DNA from: Centipeda flueggei ATCC 43531
GTDB taxonomy: Bacteria; Bacillota; Negativicutes; Selenomonadales; Selenomonadaceae
Direction: 5' to 3'
DNA length: 64,000 nt
Assembly (NCBI RefSeq): GCF_000160695.1
Contig: NZ_GG694006.1
Location: 670,932 to 734,931, forward strand
A program made the translations under genes and the position numbers. Of this stretch, positions 9,735 to 42,912 are shown piece after piece. The notes under the pieces were generated by a model. That model did not search any database, had not been told where the DNA came from, and saw nothing but the letters and a program-made list of their open reading frames with translations. Each line of letters starts with the position of its first letter. The stretch's first letter is position 1.

Positions 9735-10535
9735 TCAGTTTATATAATCCTGCACGGGAAAGTCCGCATCAAACGCCTGAATATCCGCCAATGTATCAAA
9801 CTCGTAGATGATGCCGTCCGGGAACTCACGCCGCTCAAGCGCGAGTTCATCAAGATGGCGCATATAGAACTGCTCCCAGAGGAGGCTGCGCACGGATACA
9901 TCCTGTTCATAGCCCGTACGCAGGAGTGCACTGAACTGTGCGCTGAAATTTCGCGTAAAATAGGCCTGTCCCAGCATATACCATCCATGCGCGCCGCCAA
10001 TCTGCACGTCGGTAATGCGGCCATCGCCGTTCACCGTGAGATAGTATTCATCATTCGGCGTATCGCCATATACCGCCGCATAGTAGGCGCGATAAACATA
10101 CGGCGCAAAAACGTTCTCCATAAAATAGTTATCCGCCGAACAAATATATGTATTATCGAGCACGTCGAGTACCCGGTAAAGCGATGACGTGTTGTTGCAG
10201 CAGTGATAGTCCTCATTTTCAACCAGATGAATATGGGGATCCGATGCGAGGTAGGAAAATTGCTCCTTCAGGTAGCCAACAACAAGGTAAATATCCGCAA
10301 TACCCGCCGCGCGGAGCTGCGCGATCTGCCGCTCGACCAGCACCTCACCGCGAACGCGCAGGAGCCCCTTTGGCGTACGGTCCGTGATTGGTGCAAGGCG
10401 GCTGCCATACCCCGCCGCCATCAGCACCGCATTCGTCACGCGATAGGGCGCAAGGCGCGCTGCTGCCTGTGCGCGCTGGACGGCATCATCTGCATCAAGC
10501 GATGCGATTGCCGCATCAAAGGCATCTTTGGTCAT
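9735..10535 (-). CDS. licC: CTP:phosphocholine cytidylyltransferase-like (LicC)
   Basis: A 266-residue nucleotidyltransferase with the sugar-nucleotide signature AVLMAAGYGSRLAPIT...TPKGL at about residues 36-60. In LicC proteins this forms CDP-choline from phosphocholine. About 33 residues precede the signature, an N-terminal extension not usual for LicC. The downstream ATG at 10535 is preferred because GGGAG lies five bases before it. Context supports the role: it directly follows licA and licB. No licD phosphocholine transferase is in the window, so the acceptor is unknown. Confidence 0.8.
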   Translation of the reverse strand: MTKDAFDAAIASLDADDAVQRAQAAARLAPYRVTNAVLMAAGYGSRLAPITDRTPKGLLRVRGEVLVERQIAQLRAAGIADIYLVVGYLKEQFSYLASDPHIHLVENEDYHCCNNTSSLYRVLDVLDNTYICSADNYFMENVFAPYVYRAYYAAVYGDTPNDEYYLTVNGDGRITDVQIGGAHGWYMLGQAYFTRNFSAQFSALLRTGYEQDVSVRSLLWEQFYMRHLDELALERREFPDGIIYEFDTLADIQAFDADFPVQDYIN

Positions 10536-10550
10536 ATCATCTCCCATGCC

Positions 10551-11486
10551 TCAATCCGCTGCATGCTCAGGATGCGGATGCAGTGATACAAGAAGGACTC
10601 CCAGAAAGACGAGGCTGCAGCCCAGCACCATCTGTCCCGAGATCTCCGCCCCGGCAATGCCCCATTGCAGCAATACGCCCCATATAATATAGGTTGCATT
10701 CGTCGCCATACCGCGCGCACAGCCAATGGCACGATTGACCGCATACCAGAGGAAGTAGGACGCGCCTGCAGCAGTTCCTGCGGCAGCGAGAGTCATAAAC
10801 GGCAGCGGAGCTGCGAAAAGTATATGCAGAGGGGCATCGCCCGCGAAAAAGAACAGCGTAATCGCCAGCAGGATCGTCCCTGAGATGCACTCGCGCAGAG
10901 TAATGGCGATATCCGGCCCGATGTCTGCCATGCCGCGTACAGCCAGCACAATTTCGCCGCCCCAGCAAAGAGCGGCGAGAAGTGCACACGCCATCCCCGG
11001 GAGCAGCAGCAGTGCATCCTCCGGCGCCACAGCCCCTGTGATAATTCCCCCTGCAACAGCAAGAACGATGCCGACGCCCATGCGCAGAGTGACCTGCTGA
11101 CGCAGGAGCAGGCGCGCTAAGATACAGCCAATGACGGGATACAGCGCGGAAAGCGCCAGCGCGTAGGCCGGCCCCGCCCACAGGATGCCAAGGCAATATG
11201 AGAGCTGTCCGACAGGTCCGCCAAGCAGTGCGGCAGCACAAAGAAAAGCACCGGAACGGCTGATGACCATACGCATCAAATGCAAAGTGCCGCGAAAACC
11301 GTTCATAAGGAGCAGAAAAACTGCCGCGCTCGCATCATTGACTGCCGTACAGGCAAGAGGAAAAGCGATGCCGACGGCAAATCCCGCTCCTGCTGCCGTC
11401 GCACCAACATGATACAGATAGTTGTTGCATCCCCAGAGAAGCCCGCTCACAACGCCGAGCATCACCCACATCGGATACCGTACCAT
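10551..11486 (-). CDS. licB: Choline uptake permease, LicB-like (EamA/DMT family)
   Basis: About 311 residues with some ten hydrophobic segments in two repeats, the layout of the drug/metabolite transporter superfamily. In lic1 loci this protein brings choline into the cell. Its ATG at 11486 shares one base with the licA stop codon (TGATG), which implies coupled translation. A start five codons upstream is possible but lacks a spaced ribosome site. It could move another amine; choline rests on the neighbours. Confidence 0.78.
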   Translation of the reverse strand: MVRYPMWVMLGVVSGLLWGCNNYLYHVGATAAGAGFAVGIAFPLACTAVNDASAAVFLLLMNGFRGTLHLMRMVISRSGAFLCAAALLGGPVGQLSYCLGILWAGPAYALALSALYPVIGCILARLLLRQQVTLRMGVGIVLAVAGGIITGAVAPEDALLLLPGMACALLAALCWGGEIVLAVRGMADIGPDIAITLRECISGTILLAITLFFFAGDAPLHILFAAPLPFMTLAAAGTAAGASYFLWYAVNRAIGCARGMATNATYIIWGVLLQWGIAGAEISGQMVLGCSLVFLGVLLVSLHPHPEHAAD

Positions 11487-12382
11487 CACAGCATCTCCCA
11501 TTGTTCTCGTGCTTTTTCGGCGTATTCCTTCGCAAATCGGAACTGATTTTCCTCGTACGGCCCGAATGTCGCGCCGAGCGAGCTTTTATAGACACTCCAA
11601 TCGTACCAGAGAAGTCCTCCCACCGCCATATAGGTATGGACACGTGCACGCAGCAGAGCATCAAAGCCCTCTGGAAAGTATGCCGCGATGAGCTGCTCTG
11701 TCTCATCCTCATGATAGTCGGCATAGATGGCGAACATGGCGATGTCAATCAGCGGATCGGACAGACCTGCATACTCCCAATCGATCAGATAAGGCCGCTC
11801 CCTTCCCTCCACAAAGAGAAAGTTATCCGAAACTGCATCAATGTGACAGAGTATCTCCGCCCCCGCCAAAAATGAAGCAACAAAAGGGCGAAGAGAAAAG
11901 ACCTGCTCGCGCACCGTGCGGTACACACTGCGTCTGCATTCCTGCTCCGGCATCAGCGTCTCATAAAAGAGGAGCTCGGCAAATGGGTCAAATACTTTTA
12001 CCCCGCTGAACCTGCGCTCATGAAAAGAACGCAGTGCCTCCATGCAGGAAGTGACTTCCTGCTCATTATGAGGGTCACAGACATGGGAGTGCTCATAGTA
12101 ACGCGAAATCTTATACCCCGGCTGCGTACTTAGTGCCACGATGTGCTCCGTGATGCCCGTGTCAGACAGGAGCTCATAGACTGCCTTCTCGTTTTCGCGG
12201 TCGATCAGGCGCTCCGTCCCCTCTCCATTGCAGCGAAAAATATACTTTTTCCCATCCGCGGTAAAGAGGAACGAATCATTTGTCATGCCTTCCTTCAGCG
12301 GCAGAAGAATCCCTTTTGCGGCACTCTGCCCAAAATGCAGGCGAATCGTCCGCCGGATCAACTGCTCCTGTGACTCATTCAT
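11486..12382 (-). CDS. licA: Choline kinase-like (LicA)
   Basis: About 298 residues of the choline/ethanolamine kinase fold. The catalytic loop HIDAVSDN lies near residues 180-187 and the metal-binding LIDWEYAG near 199-206. It should phosphorylate choline as the first step of the licA-licB-licC route to CDP-choline. Two ATGs three codons apart are possible; the inner one at 12382 is better spaced from AGAGG. Unlike Haemophilus licA, no tandem tetranucleotide tract is present at the 5' end. A long repeat element (12410-12570) forms most of the upstream region. Confidence 0.82.
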   Translation of the reverse strand: MNESQEQLIRRTIRLHFGQSAAKGILLPLKEGMTNDSFLFTADGKKYIFRCNGEGTERLIDRENEKAVYELLSDTGITEHIVALSTQPGYKISRYYEHSHVCDPHNEQEVTSCMEALRSFHERRFSGVKVFDPFAELLFYETLMPEQECRRSVYRTVREQVFSLRPFVASFLAGAEILCHIDAVSDNFLFVEGRERPYLIDWEYAGLSDPLIDIAMFAIYADYHEDETEQLIAAYFPEGFDALLRARVHTYMAVGGLLWYDWSVYKSSLGATFGPYEENQFRFAKEYAEKAREQWEML

Positions 12383-34819: not shown

Positions 34820-35779
34820 TTACAACAGATGCTCCGCACAGTCAATATCCGTGATAAGGACGTTGATAAAGCCGCCGCGAATTGCCCCGCGGACGGCATC
34901 CTTCTTCTGACTGCCCCCGGCCACACCAACGCGGCGCGGAATTTTTTTTAGAAGGTCCAGGGGGATGCCTGCCACACGCTCGTTAAAATCACGAAACGGT
35001 GTCGTATCGCCGTCTGCGTCAAAATAGCGCAGAGCAATATCCCCCACGGCGCCGCGCGCGGCAAATGCGGCAAGGATGGAACGGTCGACGTAGCCCGTGC
35101 GCAGGATGGTCGAGTGCTCCGTCGATGGAATTCCGATCCCCATGAGTACCAGATCAAGCCGTGGATAGAGACGCGTCACGTTACGGATGGTCTTTTCTTC
35201 CAGAAACCCCTCGAGCACTTCACGCCGCGAGAATACTGCCGGTGCGAAGAACTGCACACAGTTGCCGGCAAAGCGGTCGGCAAACTCCTGCGCAAGATAG
35301 TTTGAATGGATGTCAAGACGGCTCTCAGCGACACCGCCCACAAGCGGAACAAACGTCGCCCGAATGGGACTGCGAATGAAGTAGTCCGACCGCACGACAT
35401 TCTGAATCGCGAGCCCCATCGTGATGCCGACCAGATAGCCGTCCATCAACACCCGCGAAAGGTACTCGAGCGTCGCGCTGCCGATCTCAGAGCTGATTGG
35501 GTACTGCCCGTCCGAGAGCGGACTGGATGGGACGACGACAACTTCCTGCAGATGATACTTTTTTTCTAGCATACGTTCGAGCTGTCCATAGGCAATATTG
35601 TCGGGGTTCTGAATCTCGATGCGGACAATGCCGCGCTCCCTGCCAATGGTGAGCATGCGCGAAACTGTCGGACGCGAAATGCCGAGCAGTTCACAGATCT
35701 CCTTCTGCCCCAGCCCATCCTGATAGTACAGGCTGCAGCATTTGAAGATGAGACGCACATCATCAACGATCTTTTTCAT
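34820..35779 (-). CDS. SorC/DeoR-type sugar-binding transcriptional regulator
   Basis: A 319-residue regulator. The N-terminal helix-turn-helix is QKEICELLGISRPTVSRML near 25-43. The C-terminal SorC effector domain has GITMGLAIQNVV, LVGGVAESRLD and VGVAGGSQKKDAVRGAIRGGF. These proteins bind phosphorylated sugars and control sugar-alcohol operons. It lies downstream of the PTS genes on the same strand. ATG 35779 follows AAGGGG. Confidence 0.9.
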   Translation of the reverse strand: MKKIVDDVRLIFKCCSLYYQDGLGQKEICELLGISRPTVSRMLTIGRERGIVRIEIQNPDNIAYGQLERMLEKKYHLQEVVVVPSSPLSDGQYPISSEIGSATLEYLSRVLMDGYLVGITMGLAIQNVVRSDYFIRSPIRATFVPLVGGVAESRLDIHSNYLAQEFADRFAGNCVQFFAPAVFSRREVLEGFLEEKTIRNVTRLYPRLDLVLMGIGIPSTEHSTILRTGYVDRSILAAFAARGAVGDIALRYFDADGDTTPFRDFNERVAGIPLDLLKKIPRRVGVAGGSQKKDAVRGAIRGGFINVLITDIDCAEHLL

Positions 35780-35840
35780 CACGAACCCCTTTCCGCCTGT
35801 GCAGCACCGCTCCATTGGCGATGCATTCTCACGTTTGCAT

Positions 35841-35903
35841 CCTCTTTTGCATTTTCTATGAAAATGCAAAAGAGGAGCTGCCGCTGCTGCGGCAGCTCCT
35901 CTT
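35841..35903. promoter_or_regulatory. Two overlapping perfect inverted repeats before the SorC regulator gene
   Basis: One pair has 16-base arms, CCTCTTTTGCATTTTC and its exact complement, with a 3-base loop (35841-35875). The other has 15-base arms, AAGAGGAGCTGCCGC and its exact complement, with a 4-base loop (35870-35903). They share six bases, so as RNA only one stem can form at a time. The second looks like the terminator of the PTS transcript. The first, just upstream of the regulator gene, could be an operator or a competing stem. Confidence 0.7.
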
Positions 35904-35923
35904 GGAAGTGCACTCAGAAACAC

Positions 35924-36295
35924 TCAGTGAATCTCAATCGTTGCGCCCATCTTGATATCTTCCTTCACGAGCGGAGCGTCGCCCTTCAGCATAATACAGC
36001 CGGGGCGCTCCGGTGTCTCGCCCCCCTTGAAGGAGAACGTGCAGTGTCCGAGCTCCCGCAGGGTGTGAAGTGCTTCGTCTCCAATTGCCGTGATGGTAAA
36101 TGCCTTATCCCCTATGATCAACGTATCGCCAACGGCGGGATCCTCATTGTAGTTTGCAGGCGTGTGCAGCACGGAAAAATCTGCCAGCTCCGCGGGTGCA
36201 TTGTTATTAAAAAGAATGATAAAGTTGGCATTCGGATCATCCAAAAAGAGGAGCGACTCCTCGCCAAAACTCGTGATTTCACAATAGAACTTCAT
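35924..36295 (-). CDS. srlB: PTS glucitol/sorbitol-type IIA component
   Basis: A 123-residue EIIA of the glucitol family. The region FSVLHTPANY near 45 carries the probable phosphorylated His, and GHCTFSFKGGETPERPGCI near 84 is typical of the family. It passes phosphate from HPr to IIB. ATG 36295 follows GAGGGG. It is the last PTS gene before a terminator-like stem. Confidence 0.9.
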   Translation of the reverse strand: MKFYCEITSFGEESLLFLDDPNANFIILFNNNAPAELADFSVLHTPANYNEDPAVGDTLIIGDKAFTITAIGDEALHTLRELGHCTFSFKGGETPERPGCIMLKGDAPLVKEDIKMGATIEIH

Positions 36296-36345
36296 GCTGC
36301 ATACCCCTCTCATTTACCATGCCGCCCTCCGCGAGGCGAATCCCT

Positions 36346-36873
36346 TTACGTCCGTTTTTCCTCGCGGCGCTTCATATAGAGATAGATCTTCTCCGTGACA
36401 ATGCCGCGGAGCAGGATAACGACGACACCAACGATAAAGTAACGGACAGCCAGATCACCAAGCGGCAAACCGAGTGTCGTAATGCCCGCTGCAATGCCCA
36501 TGTAAACGAAGAGCTCGCCGCCGTTGGCATGGGGAAAGAGCCCCGTCACCGGATGCACGAAGCTGACTGCCGCATCATAGTAGGCGGGTTTATACTTCTG
36601 CTCGACGAAATTGCCGAACGTGTAGCACATCGGATTTCCGAGAAAGAGCACCGCAAGAACCGGAAGAACGGTATAGCGCGTGATGATGTTCTGCGTCGCA
36701 CGCTGTGCAACGCCGTTGACACGCTCTTCGCCGATGAGCTTGATGAGGGAGTTGACCGCCGTCATCATGATGACGAGAAGCGGAATGATGCCCGTCACCC
36801 ATGAAGTAAACGTCGCTGCCCCCGCACGGAAGAGATCCATAAAGCCGTTTGCCGCTGTTGCTATCAGTTCCAT
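36346..36873 (-). CDS. srlA: PTS glucitol/sorbitol-type IIC component
   Basis: A 175-residue membrane component with about four to five helices. LGNPMCYTFGNFVEQKYKP near 82-100 and VHPVTGLFPHANGGELFVY near 108-126 are characteristic of GutA/SrlA. It forms part of the sugar channel with the membrane part of IIB. ATG 36873 follows GGGAGGG at about ten bases. Confidence 0.9.
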   Translation of the reverse strand: MELIATAANGFMDLFRAGAATFTSWVTGIIPLLVIMMTAVNSLIKLIGEERVNGVAQRATQNIITRYTVLPVLAVLFLGNPMCYTFGNFVEQKYKPAYYDAAVSFVHPVTGLFPHANGGELFVYMGIAAGITTLGLPLGDLAVRYFIVGVVVILLRGIVTEKIYLYMKRREEKRT

Positions 36874-36892
36874 AATACTATATCCCTCCCGA

Positions 36893-37882
36893 TTAGTAAA
36901 GACCGATGCTCGCCGCATAGGCGATCAGCACGGCGAGCGGCCCTGTAATAACGCGCGAGTAAAGGACGGCAGGCACACCAAGCTCGATGGTCTCCGGATC
37001 CGCCTCCCCGAGGCTGAGTCCGACAGGAACAAAGTCCGCACCAACCTGTGCATTGATCGCAAAGAGAGCAGGCAGAGCGTACTGCGGAGGAATGTTGCCC
37101 ATCCCGATCTGTGCACCGAGCAGAGTCCCGACGACCTGTGCAATAACCGCGCCTGGCCCAAGAACAGGGGATATAAACGGAATCGCACAGATGAGCGAGA
37201 TGATAAGCATCCCGGGCAGGGAACTCGCGAGCGGTGAGATATTGTTCGCAATGAAGTTGCCGAGTCCCGAAACACTGATGATGCCGAGGATCATAGAAAC
37301 GAATGCCATGAATGGCAGAATGCTCTTGATCGTGATGTCAATCGTCTCACGCCCGGCGGCATAGAATTTATTGACAATGCCGCCAATGGCGATGCCGAGT
37401 CGCGTGACAAAGTTCTTTTCCCGCTCTGTCTGCATCGCAGCGATCTCTGCCTTTGCCTGTGCTTTGGTCTTCGGCGCATGCTCTGCCGCCGTTTCCTGTG
37501 CCTCTATCTCCGCGTCGTCCACATCGAGGATGCACGATAAATCGACGGCAGAAACATAGAGCTCCTTCGTGATAAACTGCGCCAGAGGTCCCGTCTTGCC
37601 GACGGGCAGGACATTCGCCGTCAAGATCCTCTTTTTCGGATAGACGCCGCATCGTGCCGTGCCGCCGCAGTCCACAACGGCGAGCAGGATCTCCTCATCC
37701 GGCACCCCCGTCGTAAACCCGTCAACTGCCGTGCAGCCCGTTACTTCAGCAATCTTTGCCGCAAGCGGATGGATACCGCCGCCCGTCACACTCACAACCT
37801 TGCAGCGTGTCTCCGTCGGGACGAGGATGAGAGGTCCGCCCCAGCCGCCCTTGCCAGCAACAATCTTCACCGATTTGTACAT
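36893..37882 (-). CDS. srlE: PTS glucitol/sorbitol-type IIB component
   Basis: A 329-residue protein. The N-terminal soluble IIB part has GKGGWGGPLIL and VDCGGTARCGVYPKKRI near 70-86, with the probable phosphorylated Cys. The C-terminal half (from about 180) is a membrane domain of about four helices. It phosphorylates a polyol as it enters. The start overlaps gutM by 16 bases. Confidence 0.9.
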   Translation of the reverse strand: MYKSVKIVAGKGGWGGPLILVPTETRCKVVSVTGGGIHPLAAKIAEVTGCTAVDGFTTGVPDEEILLAVVDCGGTARCGVYPKKRILTANVLPVGKTGPLAQFITKELYVSAVDLSCILDVDDAEIEAQETAAEHAPKTKAQAKAEIAAMQTEREKNFVTRLGIAIGGIVNKFYAAGRETIDITIKSILPFMAFVSMILGIISVSGLGNFIANNISPLASSLPGMLIISLICAIPFISPVLGPGAVIAQVVGTLLGAQIGMGNIPPQYALPALFAINAQVGADFVPVGLSLGEADPETIELGVPAVLYSRVITGPLAVLIAYAASIGLY

Positions 37883-38283
37883 GCGTTTTCCTCCTCTGAT
37901 TGTTGTCCATTCAGCCGTGCAATCAGCGCATCAAGTGCCTGAAGATGCCCCTTGTAGTGTGCACGCCGCCGTTCCGGCAGTGCTCCGTACTCCGCGCGCA
38001 GATCGTAGATCGTGCGCCCCGTGATCCCCTCCATCGGACGAAATCGGCTAAGGATGGTCATGCCCTGCATCATGCGCCCGTCCAGTATCTCCCCATCCGA
38101 GCGGCAGGCAATGACAACGATACTCGAAGGTCCAAGCCTGCGCCGACGTGAGCCGATGCCGACATTGCCGAGCTTATGCATCTCATGCACGGCACGCTTA
38201 TACTCCTTCACCTGCAAATGCGTGCCGATCACCTGAATGACAAAGAGCAGGAAAAGGATACCGATAAGTGTCTCCGTCTGCAA
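37867..38283 (-). CDS. gutM: Glucitol operon activator-like protein GutM
   Basis: A 138-residue GutM homolog with one N-terminal membrane helix and the core GNVGIGSRRRRLGPSSIVVIA, then GMTILSRF. In enteric bacteria GutM helps activate the glucitol operon. Here it is the first gene of the PTS transcript, ahead of IIB-IIC-IIA. A promoter lies about 100 bases upstream. Confidence 0.85.
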   Translation of the reverse strand: MQTETLIGILFLLFVIQVIGTHLQVKEYKRAVHEMHKLGNVGIGSRRRRLGPSSIVVIACRSDGEILDGRMMQGMTILSRFRPMEGITGRTIYDLRAEYGALPERRRAHYKGHLQALDALIARLNGQQSEEENACTNR

Positions 38284-38551: not shown

Positions 38552-39382
38552 TCATTTCGAAATAAGATCAATATAATGGGTCAGCACTTTTCGCATCCCT
38601 TCATCCACGGCCTTCTGCGTCTCGATCAGAGAGTCCGTCTGCAGGATGCGGAGCTCTTCCATCGCGCCCGTAAGGAAGTCTGTGTAAATGTTCAATTTCG
38701 TAATTCCATCATACACGGCACGGCGCAGGTTCTCATCGCCTGTACCGGAGCCTCCGTGCAGAACAAGCGGCACAGCGACAGCAGCAGAAAGTTCCCGCAG
38801 TCGCGTAAAGTTCAGCTCCGGCATACGGTTGCTCTTATAGACGCCATGCGACGTTCCGATCGATACGGCGAGTGAATCGACGCCCGTCGCGGCAGCAAAT
38901 GTCTGCGCCTCCTTCACGGTCGTATACACACTGTCAGAAAAGGCTCCCTCGACGCCCTCAGACGCACCGCCGACATGCCCGATCTCCGCTTCGACGCTCA
39001 CCCCCTTTGCATGTGCATAGGCGACGACCTCCTTCGTGCGGCGGATATTCTCCTCCATTGTCTCCATCGAGGCATCGAGCATGACGGATGTAAATCCAAG
39101 ATCGATAGCACGCCGTAGGAAATCAAAATCCTGCCCGTGATCGAGATGCAGGACAATCGGCGTATCCACTTTCTCCGCCCAGAACTTCCCCACGAGAGCT
39201 GCCTCCTCGAGGGAGATCAGTCCCTCATGTCCCTGGGCAAAGGAGAGCATAATCGGCCTTTTTTTTGCATCTGCCGTTTGAACGAATGTACGGCACATGT
39301 TGAGCGTGAGAAAGTCCGGCGCAACAATGCCGTAATGCCCCGCTTTTGCCGCATCCAATACAGATTTTCCATCGACCAGCAT
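38552..39382 (-). CDS. Class II fructose/tagatose-bisphosphate aldolase family protein
   Basis: A 276-residue TIM-barrel aldolase. Zinc ligands and neighbours are visible: LHLDHGQDF near 81-89, EAEIGHVGG near 130, GTSHGVYKS near 178 and VLHGGSGTGD near 208. It cleaves a ketose phosphate to dihydroxyacetone phosphate plus an aldehyde. The start is ATG 39382 after GGAGGG, because a good promoter lies within the longer upstream frame. It is probably specific to the nearby polyol pathway rather than glycolysis. Confidence 0.88.
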   Translation of the reverse strand: MLVDGKSVLDAAKAGHYGIVAPDFLTLNMCRTFVQTADAKKRPIMLSFAQGHEGLISLEEAALVGKFWAEKVDTPIVLHLDHGQDFDFLRRAIDLGFTSVMLDASMETMEENIRRTKEVVAYAHAKGVSVEAEIGHVGGASEGVEGAFSDSVYTTVKEAQTFAAATGVDSLAVSIGTSHGVYKSNRMPELNFTRLRELSAAVAVPLVLHGGSGTGDENLRRAVYDGITKLNIYTDFLTGAMEELRILQTDSLIETQKAVDEGMRKVLTHYIDLISK

Positions 39383-39449
39383 GGGGATCCCTCCATTTCT
39401 AAGAACACCATCTAGGTACTGCTGCTCAATGATATTCTCATCATCCATT

Positions 39450-39478
39450 ATGATAGAAAAGAAGTCTAAATTTGTCAA
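39450..39478 (-). promoter_or_regulatory. Probable promoter of the aldolase gene
   Basis: On the minus strand a perfect TTGACA (39473-39478) and TATCAT (39450-39455) are 17 bases apart. The start near 39443 gives a leader of about 60 bases. The divergent control region 39456-39673 is shared with the tpi-like gene and is the likely place for SorC-type binding, though I could not pick a convincing operator. Confidence 0.7.
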
Positions 39479-39673: not shown

Positions 39674-40381
39674 ATGCAGACTCATCCCGCTCCGTTTCTC
39701 GTCGTCAATCCAAAGTCCTACCTCTATGGCGCATCGTCTCTTGCCCTCGCAAAAACTGCTGATGCTGCGGCGAAACGAACCGGGCTGACGATCTACTTTA
39801 CCTGCCCATTCTCCGACATCCGATTGATCCGTGAGAACACTGATGCCATCGTCGTCACGGCACAGGCAATGGACAGCCTTCAGCCTGGACGCGGCATGGG
39901 GCATTTGCTCCCCGAGGCGCTCTATGACGCAGGGGCACGCGCAGCTTTTCTCAACCATGCAGAGCATCCCATGACCATTGCCGAGCTGTCAAAGACGATC
40001 ACACGGGCACACGAGATCGGCATCACGACCATCGCCTGTGCGGATTCCCTCGCCGAGGGGCGTGCCATCGCCGCATTTGCTCCCGATATTCTTCTCTGTG
40101 AGCCGACCGATCTCATCGGTACAGGGAGGACCGCAGACGACAGCTATACGACCTCCATCGTCGCGGAGATCCGCGCCATCAACCCCGCTATTGGCATTAT
40201 GATTGCGTCAGGCATCACCACAGCAGACGACGTCTACCGTGTCGTGCATCTCGGTGCAGACGGCAGCGGTGCAACAAGCGGCATTCTAAACGCCCCTGAC
40301 CCCGCCGTGCGCATTGCGGAGATGGCAGATGCTGTCCTGCGCGGTGTATCGGAGCGCCGTGGATCAGGAGAAATGATATGA
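39674..40381 (+). CDS. Divergent triosephosphate isomerase-like protein
   Basis: A 235-residue barrel related to triosephosphate isomerase, short like the archaeal and EryH forms. The catalytic residues seem kept: Asn and Lys in NPKSY near 12-16, His in LNHAEHP near 93-99 and Glu in LLCEPTDLIGTG near 139. The usual GHSERR motif is replaced, which suggests a substrate other than glyceraldehyde-3-phosphate, for instance a tetrulose phosphate. TAGGAG precedes the ATG. It overlaps yjbQ (ATGA). Confidence 0.8.
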   Translation: MQTHPAPFLVVNPKSYLYGASSLALAKTADAAAKRTGLTIYFTCPFSDIRLIRENTDAIVVTAQAMDSLQPGRGMGHLLPEALYDAGARAAFLNHAEHPMTIAELSKTITRAHEIGITTIACADSLAEGRAIAAFAPDILLCEPTDLIGTGRTADDSYTTSIVAEIRAINPAIGIMIASGITTADDVYRVVHLGADGSGATSGILNAPDPAVRIAEMADAVLRGVSERRGSGEMI

Positions 40382-40899
40382 GTGTTTTTAAGAAAAAGCT
40401 GTCCCTCACGTCACACGGAGGAACGCCGACCTTTATCAATATCACGGAGGAGCTGCGTGCAGCAATCTGTGAGAGCGGCATCCGCGAGGGGATCGCAACG
40501 GTGATCTCGCCGCATACGACCTGCGCCGTATTCTTCGAAGAGTTCGTTCACGATGTAGATGCGGACGGTAATGAATTCCTGCAAAACGATCTGGACAACG
40601 CCCTCCAAAAGATCATCCCGAACCAGACCGGAGGGAACCAATACCGGTACCCCGGCGAGGAGCACTATCGCGCCGTTGAGAGCTGGCCGGATGCCGAGGC
40701 ATACCTGCCGGGCGGTGACCGCACCGCTCTCTGGAACTGCGACGCCCATCTCAAGGCGACTCTCATCGGCTCATCGGAGACATTCGAGGTGACGGACGGC
40801 AAACTTGGTGTTGGCATGACCGGCTACTGTTACTTTGTCGACTTCGACCGCACCCGACCGCGCACACGCAAATGTGCGATTGTCGTAATGGGAGAGTAA
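40378..40899 (+). CDS. YjbQ family protein (UPF0047)
   Basis: A 173-residue member of the YjbQ family, known for weak thiamine-phosphate synthase activity but of uncertain true role. ISPHTTCAVFFEE near 43-55 and WNCDAHLKATLIGSSE near 120 carry the conserved His and acidic residues. Translation is coupled to the tpi-like gene, which suggests it works in the same pathway. Confidence 0.88.
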   Translation: MSVFKKKLSLTSHGGTPTFINITEELRAAICESGIREGIATVISPHTTCAVFFEEFVHDVDADGNEFLQNDLDNALQKIIPNQTGGNQYRYPGEEHYRAVESWPDAEAYLPGGDRTALWNCDAHLKATLIGSSETFEVTDGKLGVGMTGYCYFVDFDRTRPRTRKCAIVVMGE

Positions 40900-41142: not shown

Positions 41143-41335
41143 ATGAAAACAGAGATGTTGTGGAATGAAATCTTTCGTCTGAAAGAACGCGGAGTGTCTG
41201 AATCGCAGGACGCTCGCCTCGAGGAAGGAATTACAGGAGGCTGCGGCACAGTATGTCCAGTTTTACAACGGCGAACGTATCCAGTGAAAACGCGGTCTTA
41301 CTCCATATGAGATACAGAGTAAGACCGCACAGGGC
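41143..41335 (+). pseudogene. Decayed C-terminal part of an IS3-family transposase (OrfB)
   Basis: Translated fragments match the end of IS3-family OrfB. One frame reads MKTEMLWNEIFRLKERG. After a frame change comes EAAAQYVQFYNGERIQ, an in-frame TGA, and KRGLTPYEIQSKTAQ. The catalytic DDE residues are missing. No intact ends or target duplication were seen. It is a relic of a past insertion between yjbQ and the SAF-domain gene. Confidence 0.75.
41292..41328 (-). terminator. Possible terminator for the SAF-domain oxidoreductase gene
   Basis: Perfect 12-base arms GCGGTCTTACTC and GAGTAAGACCGC around a 13-base loop. On the minus strand GTTTTC follows. It lies within the IS3 remnant, about 100 bases beyond the stop of the oxidoreductase gene. 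Confidence 0.5.
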
Positions 41336-41429: not shown

Positions 41430-42752
41430 TTACTTCAGCGCATACCCGTTGCTGTACATCTTGTCCTGCTCTTTACGCACCTGATAAAGCTGCGTGGAGG
41501 TATCGAGATCGACCATATCGAGCGTGAGGAGCGTCCCCTTCTTGACATCACATTTCATGCGCGTGTTCTTGTTGACGAGAGCATAAACAACATAACCGTT
41601 CTTATATGTCTCCTCGGCCGTTGCAATCGATCCGTAGGTCGTATAGCCACCGATGCCGTCGATGGTCTCACCGGCCTTGAGATCGCGCTTTGCAACGGCG
41701 ATACATTCGCTGACAGGGCCGTCAAGCGGAATGATGGTCGGCTCGCCGTCAATGACAATCTTTGCGACAGTGAGCGGTGTCTCGAGATTACAGAGATGGT
41801 AGGGACGATAGAGCGTCCAGAGGGGGCCCGGTCCCATGCTGTGATAGCCCATCTGATAGGCGATCTCCTCGTTCTCCGTGGTAACGGTGACGAAGACACC
41901 GGGCGCGATGCCGTTAACGTACTCCACAACGCCATGCTTATTGAGAATGCCGCCATCCTTCTTCAGCTTGAAGATCTGGTTGAGGTCTGCGCAGCGATCC
42001 TTCGGGGATGCTGAGGGCCCATGCCCGCCGATTACATCGGGGATGAGACCAGTCGCGTTCGACATCGCAGTCATCTCGACCATCGTCTTTGTGCCATCCT
42101 TGAACGAAGTGAGCATGCGCGGGCTCATCTTGCGGCGCGTCGCTTCTTCAAGAACGGTATCGGGGTTGCAGTCATAGTCGAGTTTGTTGTTCTTGCCCTT
42201 GCCCATGACCTTGACCTCCATGCCCATCGCACGGGCAAAGGAGTAAAGTTCCATGACAGCACCAGGCTCATCGCCTGCCGAGCCTGTGTAGATGACGCCA
42301 TTCTTATCGCCGAGCTTCTTGAGATAGCTGCCGATGACGACATCTGTCTCCACGTCCATCATGACAACATGTTTCTTATTGTTCATCGCGTCGATCGCGA
42401 TCTTAACGCCGACCTCCGGCACACCTGTCACGTCGATCGCGACCTCGACGAGGTTCGCCTGTGAAATAAAATCCGAGTTCTCCGTCGCGACGTATTTTCC
42501 CTGCTCCATATAGCGGTTCGCCTCTTCGAGGGTTTTTGCTACAGCGATGTCCTCATCGCTGATACCCGCATAGTGAAAGGCGTTGATGACGTTTTCGAAT
42601 TTGATATCCGAGACAATTGCGGGCATGATCCCCTTCATGAGCGCCATCTGTGTGACCATGCCGCGCCCCATCTGACCTGCACCGACGATGCCGGCACGAA
42701 TAATCTTGCCCTCTTCCTCGCGCTTTGCGAGCTTCTTGTCCATATTCAGCAT
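41430..42752 (-). CDS. Homoserine-dehydrogenase-like oxidoreductase with C-terminal SAF domain
   Basis: A 440-residue protein. The N-terminal Rossmann motif is AGIVGAGQMGRGMV near 19-32. The middle contains DVTGVPEVG, VVMMDVETDVVIG and the YTGSAGDEPGAVMEL segment. The C-terminal SAF-like part covers about 345-430 (AVAKRDLKAGETIDGIGGYTTYG). This is the COG4091 group, which also includes the DXR-like protein DRL of Brucella. It is not a biosynthetic homoserine dehydrogenase: no ACT domain and no amino acid genes are near. A role as the missing polyol-phosphate or ketose-phosphate oxidoreductase of the PTS cluster is inference. ATG 42752 follows AAAGGAG. Confidence 0.85.
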   Translation of the reverse strand: MLNMDKKLAKREEEGKIIRAGIVGAGQMGRGMVTQMALMKGIMPAIVSDIKFENVINAFHYAGISDEDIAVAKTLEEANRYMEQGKYVATENSDFISQANLVEVAIDVTGVPEVGVKIAIDAMNNKKHVVMMDVETDVVIGSYLKKLGDKNGVIYTGSAGDEPGAVMELYSFARAMGMEVKVMGKGKNNKLDYDCNPDTVLEEATRRKMSPRMLTSFKDGTKTMVEMTAMSNATGLIPDVIGGHGPSASPKDRCADLNQIFKLKKDGGILNKHGVVEYVNGIAPGVFVTVTTENEEIAYQMGYHSMGPGPLWTLYRPYHLCNLETPLTVAKIVIDGEPTIIPLDGPVSECIAVAKRDLKAGETIDGIGGYTTYGSIATAEETYKNGYVVYALVNKNTRMKCDVKKGTLLTLDMVDLDTSTQLYQVRKEQDKMYSNGYALK

Positions 42753-42871
42753 GCGAAACTCCTTTCGCCCACCTGTCGGTGGAATAATACATCTCTGCTC
42801 TGAACTTAGTATAGCACCGCATTTCCATTCATACAATATCATCTTAGCTGAATTTGTGTAAACATTACAGC

Positions 42872-42912
42872 AAAAAAGAGGTATGTTTCCATCTGTAAAG
42901 AAACATACCTCT
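42872..42912 (-). terminator. Intrinsic terminator of the cupin gene
   Basis: Perfect 13-base arms AGAGGTATGTTTC and GAAACATACCTCT, followed on the minus strand by six T. Confidence 0.85.

Follow-up and report, generated by a model that had tools for sequence, protein, structure and literature searches.

The window analysed here is a 64,000-nucleotide stretch of Centipeda flueggei ATCC 43531 (contig NZ_GG694006.1, positions 670,932 to 734,931), and it carries on its reverse strand a gene whose product is, with high confidence from sequence comparison, a type II 1-deoxy-D-xylulose 5-phosphate reductoisomerase (DXR-II, DRL). The frame encodes 440 residues plus a stop codon; a longer frame reaching 42842 is also listed, and alignment with relatives, together with an AAGGAG motif six nucleotides upstream, favours the ATG at 42752 as the predicted start (Table 1). 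Genes for a glucitol-type phosphotransferase system (PTS) lie nearby, and a convergent pair (39674-40899, +) encoding YjbQ and a triosephosphate isomerase (TIM) homologue that aligns with archaeal TIMs stands between them and DRL. The hairpin that follows the DRL stop codon is stable (z -3.6; 0/200 shuffles equally stable) and is not among the terminator-scan results, its tail being too short in T. Because the convergent pair and this hairpin separate DRL from the PTS genes and a terminator-like hairpin lies upstream, DRL looks like its own transcript and not part of one operon with the PTS. The scanned sites near DRL are weak evidence, given the scan counts against expectation (4 terminators versus 2.6 expected, 6 promoters versus 2.1 expected). 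A preliminary description of this DNA had placed the protein beside a PTS and an aldolase; SrlA, SrlE, SrlB, GutM, a regulator and a class II aldolase are indeed present, though apparently not as one operon with DRL.

Table 1. Features at the DRL locus, in window coordinates
Feature	Position	Strand	Basis
Predicted DXR-II/DRL gene, 440 aa; Rossmann + DRL catalytic (DRL_cat) + SAF	41430..42752	-	open reading frame, Pfam, phmmer, residues, tree
Ribosome-binding site AAGGAG of DRL gene	42759..42764	-	read from sequence
Hairpin ~100 nt after DRL stop codon, possible transcript end	41291..41329	-	folding vs shuffles
Terminator-like hairpin after cupin gene, upstream of DRL	42877..42912	-	terminator scan
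Weak promoter-like site upstream of DRL, matched by consensus alone	42833..42862	-	promoter scan
YjbQ (UPF0047) gene, convergent with DRL; belongs to TIM-YjbQ-aldolase set found beside DRL elsewhere	40378..40899	+	
Archaeal-type TIM homologue	39674..40381	+	
Class II ketose-bisphosphate aldolase homologue, nearest solved relative YdjI	38552..39478	-	
GutM	37867..38283	-	
Glucitol-type PTS subunit SrlE, DRL-linked part of tree, not sorbitol part	36893..37882	-	
Glucitol-type PTS subunit SrlA	36346..36918	-	
Glucitol-type PTS subunit SrlB (IIA)	35924..36313	-	
Regulator with SorC/DeoR-type sugar-binding domain	34820..35923	-	

The assignment to DXR-II draws on domain architecture, key residues and phylogeny. 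The Pfam domain DRL_cat was matched at 214.8 bits over its full 164-position model (cut-off 27) and SAF at 22.4 bits (cut-off 21), and the order Rossmann, DRL catalytic and SAF spans the full length of the protein, in agreement with the preliminary reading of a Rossmann domain joined to a C-terminal SAF domain. The kinship with DRL suggested there was confirmed by a phmmer match to the Brucella DRL structures 3upl/3upy over residues 4-433 (E 2.7e-103), with 184 of 425 aligned residues (43%) identical. A scan of a viral contig collection returned no relative of the protein. For the residue comparison, which took in DRL frames with an alignment of at least 380 residues, we used eleven sites in Brucella numbering: K191, K193 and T229, which bind substrate and fosmidomycin, R320, Y322, E174 and F178 at the dimer interface, G121, H250 and V351, named as separating DXR-II from the DLO proteins in the main text of the family survey (PMC3847144), and in addition position 161. 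The window protein equals Brucella DRL at 11/11 of these sites, and all 11 residues occur together in 0/8 DLO-like references, each of which differs at several. Across the 95 DXR-II rows, a set that counts the window and Brucella proteins, G121, Y161, K191, K193, T229 and R320 are invariant, while H250 is kept in 86 and V351 in 71. A 103-row quick tree, in which Brucella DRL is the sole characterised DXR-II row, puts the window protein in a group of 88 rows from Bacillota, Spirochaetota and Synergistota, one of them from Listeria monocytogenes, a species listed among DXR-II carriers in the survey text (PMC3847144); five DLO-like rows lie beyond a starred branch.

The predicted enzyme thus resembles Brucella DXR-II as a full-length homologue with the same domain order, the same key residues and the same side of the tree, and differs from it in overall identity and in its Bacillota branch. 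It shares superfamily and a Rossmann plus SAF-type build with DLO1 and DLO2, from which it is set apart by its key residues and by the best tree. The reaction proposed for it is that of DXR-I (IspC), whose catalytic domain is different and without a match in the genome. With these residues, this tree and no DXR-I, DXR-II is a better reading than the earlier statement that the real reaction is unknown. The gene adds a further member to a known enzyme type, in a genus absent from the survey (Carretero-Paulet et al. 2013; PMC3847144), whose main text contains none of the terms Selenomonas, Veillonell-, Negativicutes, phosphotransferase, sorbitol and acetoin.

Genome content indicates that DRL is likely the sole DXR in Selenomonas, standing in for the usual enzyme, which has been lost. 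We searched for the methylerythritol phosphate (MEP) pathway genes dxs, ispD, ispF and ispG and for the mevalonate gene encoding 3-hydroxy-3-methylglutaryl-CoA (HMG-CoA) synthase. The DXR-I domain DXPR_C had no match in the window's own genome, which is 99.7% complete. Across the 14 genomes of the genus searched, DRL, IspG and IspF are each present in 14/14, and the DXR-I domain and HMG-CoA synthase in 0/14; IspD adjoins IspF in the window's genome. As far as searched, this fits class A of the survey text, in which MEP enzymes are present and DXR-I is absent (PMC3847144). The dxs profile matches 14/14 genomes and also hits transketolases; in the window's genome two PRK12315-type DXS genes stand in tandem, scoring 778 and 819 bits (NCBIfam cut-off 510).

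The dxr locus itself points the same way. Among 15 dxr-bearing loci (L057 and L024 being one locus), the order cdsA-dxr-rseP-ispG is found in 13, the exceptions being L031 without a visible cdsA and L033 without a visible ispG, and dxr adjoins rseP in 15/15. In the window's genome (G000) and in G069, cdsA runs straight into rseP-ispG, with a gap of 20 bp in G000, and this is a clean loss of dxr. Within the family, DXR-I was found in 82 of 101 genomes and DRL above cut-off in 17; DXR-I is missing from 11 of these 17 (nine Selenomonas, two of genus g27) versus 8 of the 84 genomes lacking DRL (Fisher 3.5e-6, kinship ignored), and the other six DRL genomes hold both. The preliminary description had stated that absence of dxr together with grouping inside DRL would make this an isoprenoid enzyme. 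No dxr was found in the genome and the protein does group inside DRL, since the DXR-I domain is absent and the protein lies on the DXR-II side of the tree. Judging from its residues and genome, Selenomonas DRL would convert 1-deoxy-D-xylulose 5-phosphate (DXP) and NADPH to MEP, as in characterised DXR-II (PMC3847144).

The pattern of selection and linkage in the genus also speaks for this role. Against five relatives that carry the PTS, the ratio of nonsynonymous to synonymous substitution rates (dN/dS) of DRL is 0.014-0.026, indicating strong purifying selection; the same relatives give 0.023-0.040 for GroEL, 0.05-0.08 for YjbQ, 0.06-0.07 for SrlE, 0.07-0.11 for the aldolase and 0.09-0.13 for TIM. 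In 7/14 genomes (G000, G008, G056, G069, G078, G085, G091) a DRL-type PTS is found no more than 20 kb from DRL. Six of the 14 keep DRL though no DRL-type PTS is seen nearby: G101 and G103 have no PTS homologue over ~17-24 kb downstream of DRL, G097 and G105 have a lone SrlB homologue over the same extent, and a sorbitol-type PTS takes its place in G037 and G102 (the search covered ~9 kb on the upstream side, less in the second stretch of G097, and ~9 kb downstream in G037). The only EIIBC-GUT of G037 is sorbitol-type, and the whole G097 genome has none. In the remaining genome, G104, DRL stands at a contig end.

Several observations weigh against this reading of DRL. The quick tree leaves a DLO-like trio at an unresolved fork with Deinococcus, the Brucella-rhizobium group and L133. 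In the best tree found, which was constrained to keep all 95 DXR-II rows together, the 8 DLO-like rows stand apart; its log-likelihood is 5.27 above that of the free quick tree, with an approximately unbiased test p of 0.564, so other trees are possible. The absence of DXR-I rests on one profile, DXPR_C, though that profile matches 82/101 family genomes; 8/101 have no match to either enzyme, including four genomes with a completeness of 90% or more, and a missing match is therefore not always a missing gene. SrlA, at dN/dS 0.027-0.044, is about as conserved as GroEL. In the sub-clade without the linked PTS (G037, G097, G101, G102, G105) DRL is 86% identical to that of the window, and dN/dS to four of these five genomes is 0.07-0.08. 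Catabolic neighbours are also kept close in half of the genus genomes, leaving room for a second role.

Some further features of these genomes were seen. The tandem DXS genes lie at L039:7404-9167 and 10017-12017 (G000:C7, ~121-126 kb); no canonical long DXS is among the matches listed for the 14 Selenomonas genomes, one of these genomes barely passes the TIGR00204 cut-off, and many relatives have ~630-residue frames with a split, canonical-looking DXS match. The first MEP step in Selenomonas may also have been replaced. In G101 (L184) GroEL shares 99% identity with that of the window but the DRL beside it only 86%, so an exchange within the genus may have affected either the DRL stretch or groEL. 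G017 carries DXR-I, and its DRL has an in-frame loss of residues 184-362 that takes away most of the catalytic domain; the broken gene (L056:9634-10416) lies between PTS genes and ispD-ispF.

The wider neighbourhoods of DRL were sampled in the best 80 of 566 relatives (named loci), a sample leaning to close kin, with counts by tblastn, a set counted as present with at least two members, and the broken L056, too short for trees, excluded. At least two PTS subunits occur in 56 of the 80 loci, at least two of E1 alpha, E1 beta and E2 in 22, and at least two of aldolase, TIM and YjbQ in 15. Of the 42 loci whose flanks reach at least 5 kb to either side, 36 have a glucitol-type PTS, 18 a pyruvate/acetoin-dehydrogenase-like E1/E2 set and 8 an aldolase/TIM/YjbQ set; the latter two sets occur together in 0/42 (Fisher 0.0066, kinship ignored), and five loci are without all three. 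Strict mutual exclusion of the two downstream sets was rejected: the rule gives 0/80 with both, but L122 has E1/E2 with an aldolase, and an fba gene accompanies the E1/E2 set in the rhizobial L163. Likewise, a reading of the E1 proteins as specifically acetoin dehydrogenases was set aside. Three E1 alpha proteins score just below the pyruvate dehydrogenase E1 alpha cut-off (383.5, 377.4 and 389.2 versus 393.85), and two have pyruvate dehydrogenases as their closest solved structures, so that these comparisons do not single out a substrate for the complex.

Linkage of DRL to uptake genes is widespread. Six family genomes carry DXR-I alongside DRL, and in 6/6 the DRL gene forms part of the PTS cluster, for example in the order gutM-srlB-DRL-aldolase-TIM-yjbQ-srlA-srlE in L044 and L047; EIIBC-GUT is found within 12 kb of DRL in 15/17 DRL genomes, one of these (G037) being sorbitol-type. 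DRL and glucitol-type PTS co-occur in many Bacillota, in two Spirochaetota loci (L071, L108) and in one alphaproteobacterium. Loci from a plasmid collection show a regulator, DRL, GutM and PTS in Listeria, DRL with PTS in Ligilactobacillus, and DRL with the E1/E2 set in Sinorhizobium, Aminobacter and Terrarubrum, the last also with PTS. In Sinorhizobium and two further rhizobial loci an ATP-binding cassette (ABC) transporter, a sugar kinase and a regulator accompany DRL, E1 alpha, E1 beta, E2 and E3; in Aminobacter neither sugar kinase nor PTS lies in the stretch examined. A PTS in one group, and an ABC transporter with a kinase in the other, can equally deliver a phosphorylated compound to DRL. 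DXR-I is present in 26/50 named DRL genomes from the 80 loci (including metagenome-assembled genomes, completeness unstated) and in 14/21 of those with the E1/E2 set; DRL there is therefore often redundant for isoprenoids, and in 7/21 maybe not.

That relatives of DRL so often stand in sugar-alcohol uptake operons suggests that the family began by breaking down the compound it now makes. We propose, at even confidence for and against, that DXR-II is catabolic at root, in a widespread undescribed methylerythritol pathway, and was recruited for isoprenoid synthesis where dxr was lost, as in Selenomonas. The pathway is inferred from recurring gene sets. 2-C-methyl-D-erythritol would be taken up by the glucitol-type PTS, or by an ABC transporter with a kinase in rhizobia, to give MEP, which DXR-II would oxidise back to DXP. 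DXP is the acyloin of an acetyl unit and glyceraldehyde 3-phosphate, and acetoin is split by a thiamine diphosphate-dependent E1/E2/E3 complex; a complex of this kind could therefore split DXP like acetoin, and the pyruvate/acetoin-dehydrogenase-like complex beside DRL would yield acetyl-CoA and glyceraldehyde 3-phosphate. Alternatively, the aldolase/TIM/YjbQ set, in which the role of YjbQ is putative, would shift the carbonyl to give a 5-deoxypentulose 1-phosphate and cleave it to dihydroxyacetone phosphate (DHAP) and acetaldehyde. A model for this last step is the DHAP shunt (drdK-drdI-drdA), in which an isomerase and a metal-dependent aldolase split a deoxypentulose phosphate to DHAP and acetaldehyde (PMC6079011); unlike the shunt, the DRL-linked set has an inferred reaction only. 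At first DRL would have belonged to a polyol-PTS cluster in genomes with a functional DXR-I, and it would have become essential in the lineage that lost dxr.

No report of such a pathway was among the matches listed when an open-licence library was searched for methylerythritol catabolism and for DXR-II with a PTS or acetoin dehydrogenase. If true, a catabolic origin would explain why DXR-II occurs beside DXR-I and in bacteria without the MEP pathway: the main text of the survey raises the question of the origin of a redundant enzyme where DXR-I is already present and reports DXR-II in two Firmicutes without any other MEP or mevalonate enzyme (PMC3847144). The operon context of DRL relatives is the unexpected part and makes the reason for the existence of DXR-II testable; for Selenomonas, the enzyme of an essential step is named and the loss of the usual gene documented. 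Plants commonly make methylerythritol and its glycosides, and the oxidation of isoprene yields methyltetrols, so a degradation route would matter for carbon flow.

Alternative roles for DRL were weighed against these data. It is tentatively possible, and compatible with DRL as the sole DXR, that where the linked PTS is kept the enzyme also runs backwards: the PTS would import and phosphorylate 2-C-methyl-D-erythritol to MEP, which would pass to IspD as salvage or through DRL to DXP and on to breakdown by TIM, YjbQ and the aldolase. The retention of the DRL-type PTS in 7/14 genomes, its separation from the sorbitol PTS on the tree and the consecutive PTS, DRL, ispD and ispF of L046 speak for such a dual role, while the six genomes that keep DRL without that PTS nearby (one more being at a contig end), the apparently separate transcript in the window and a PTS substrate that is itself putative speak against it. 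The preliminary description held a catabolic redox or isomero-reductase step on a phosphorylated sugar to be plausible; taken as a rival, the enzyme would be purely catabolic, acting on ketose or polyol phosphates, and MEP would come from another source. The PTS and aldolase neighbours, and the place of DRL inside the PTS cluster in 6/6 genomes that also hold DXR-I, agree with this, and for PTS-linked DRL clusters as a family we do propose an isomero-reductase step on a phosphorylated polyol. For the present genome it is not the best reading and is very unlikely, given no DXR-I domain, no HMG-CoA synthase, the other searched MEP genes in place, DRL kept where the PTS is gone, and all 11 DXR-II residues retained.

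Two further alternatives concern the polyol. Apiitol, a hydroxylated analogue of methylerythritol, could be taken up by the PTS as apiitol phosphate and converted by DRL to D-xylulose 5-phosphate, a rearrangement that by our own reasoning is chemically parallel; no further special enzyme would be needed, as in the Listeria cluster, and transketolase genes stand beside DRL in some loci. This seems unlikely, as it leaves the E1/E2 complex in 18/42 loci and the ispD-ispF adjacency unexplained, and the tested reaction of the DXR-II family is MEP formation in the survey text (PMC3847144). Highly improbable is that the clusters are ordinary sorbitol operons in which DRL stands by chance. Their parts are annotated as glucitol/sorbitol PTS, the PTS near DRL in G037 and G102 falls in the sorbitol clade, and a paper on Listeria, in which expression of the PTS, GutM and SAF genes is lower in a ccpC mutant, treats the operon as sorbitol metabolism (PMC11176438). 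On a tree of SrlE, however, 72 sequences from DRL loci and 20 from other gut PTS loci of the family separate in 5 changes, against a shuffled mean of 18.5 (0/500 shuffles as low; shuffles ignore kinship), the exceptions being L052 and L185, sorbitol-type near DRL, and L169, L180 and L183, unlinked yet among the linked ones. The window shares its PTS and GutM families with the srl/gut sorbitol operon and differs in that a scan of ten window proteins, the tested genes of the DRL-linked PTS among them, found no sorbitol-6-phosphate dehydrogenase; a homologue (425.9 bits, cut-off 304) stands at the second gut PTS of the same genome. The DRL-linked PTS thus appears mostly not to be a sorbitol PTS and to form a clade apart.

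Other observations from the DRL loci may be recorded. Adjacency of ispD-ispF to DRL was rejected as a general feature: it occurs only in L046, where both genes (L046:8019-9278) lie directly downstream of the PTS-DRL cluster, and in L056 with its broken DRL, four other IspD hits being 4-7 kb off. FSA and transketolase beside DRL in Ligilactobacillus were set aside as a DXP-splitting pair, and we take them more likely to be pentose-phosphate genes. L071, a contig of Brachyspira catarrhinii and thus of another phylum, carries with a PTS a DRL 84% identical to the Selenomonas protein, which is either a recent transfer or contig contamination. Fifteen loci, L124 (2525-2845) among them, encode a protein of 92-149 residues, and in 11 of the 15 its gene comes directly after DRL; the copy inspected contains CxxC motifs, and neither of the two scanned copies has a Pfam match.
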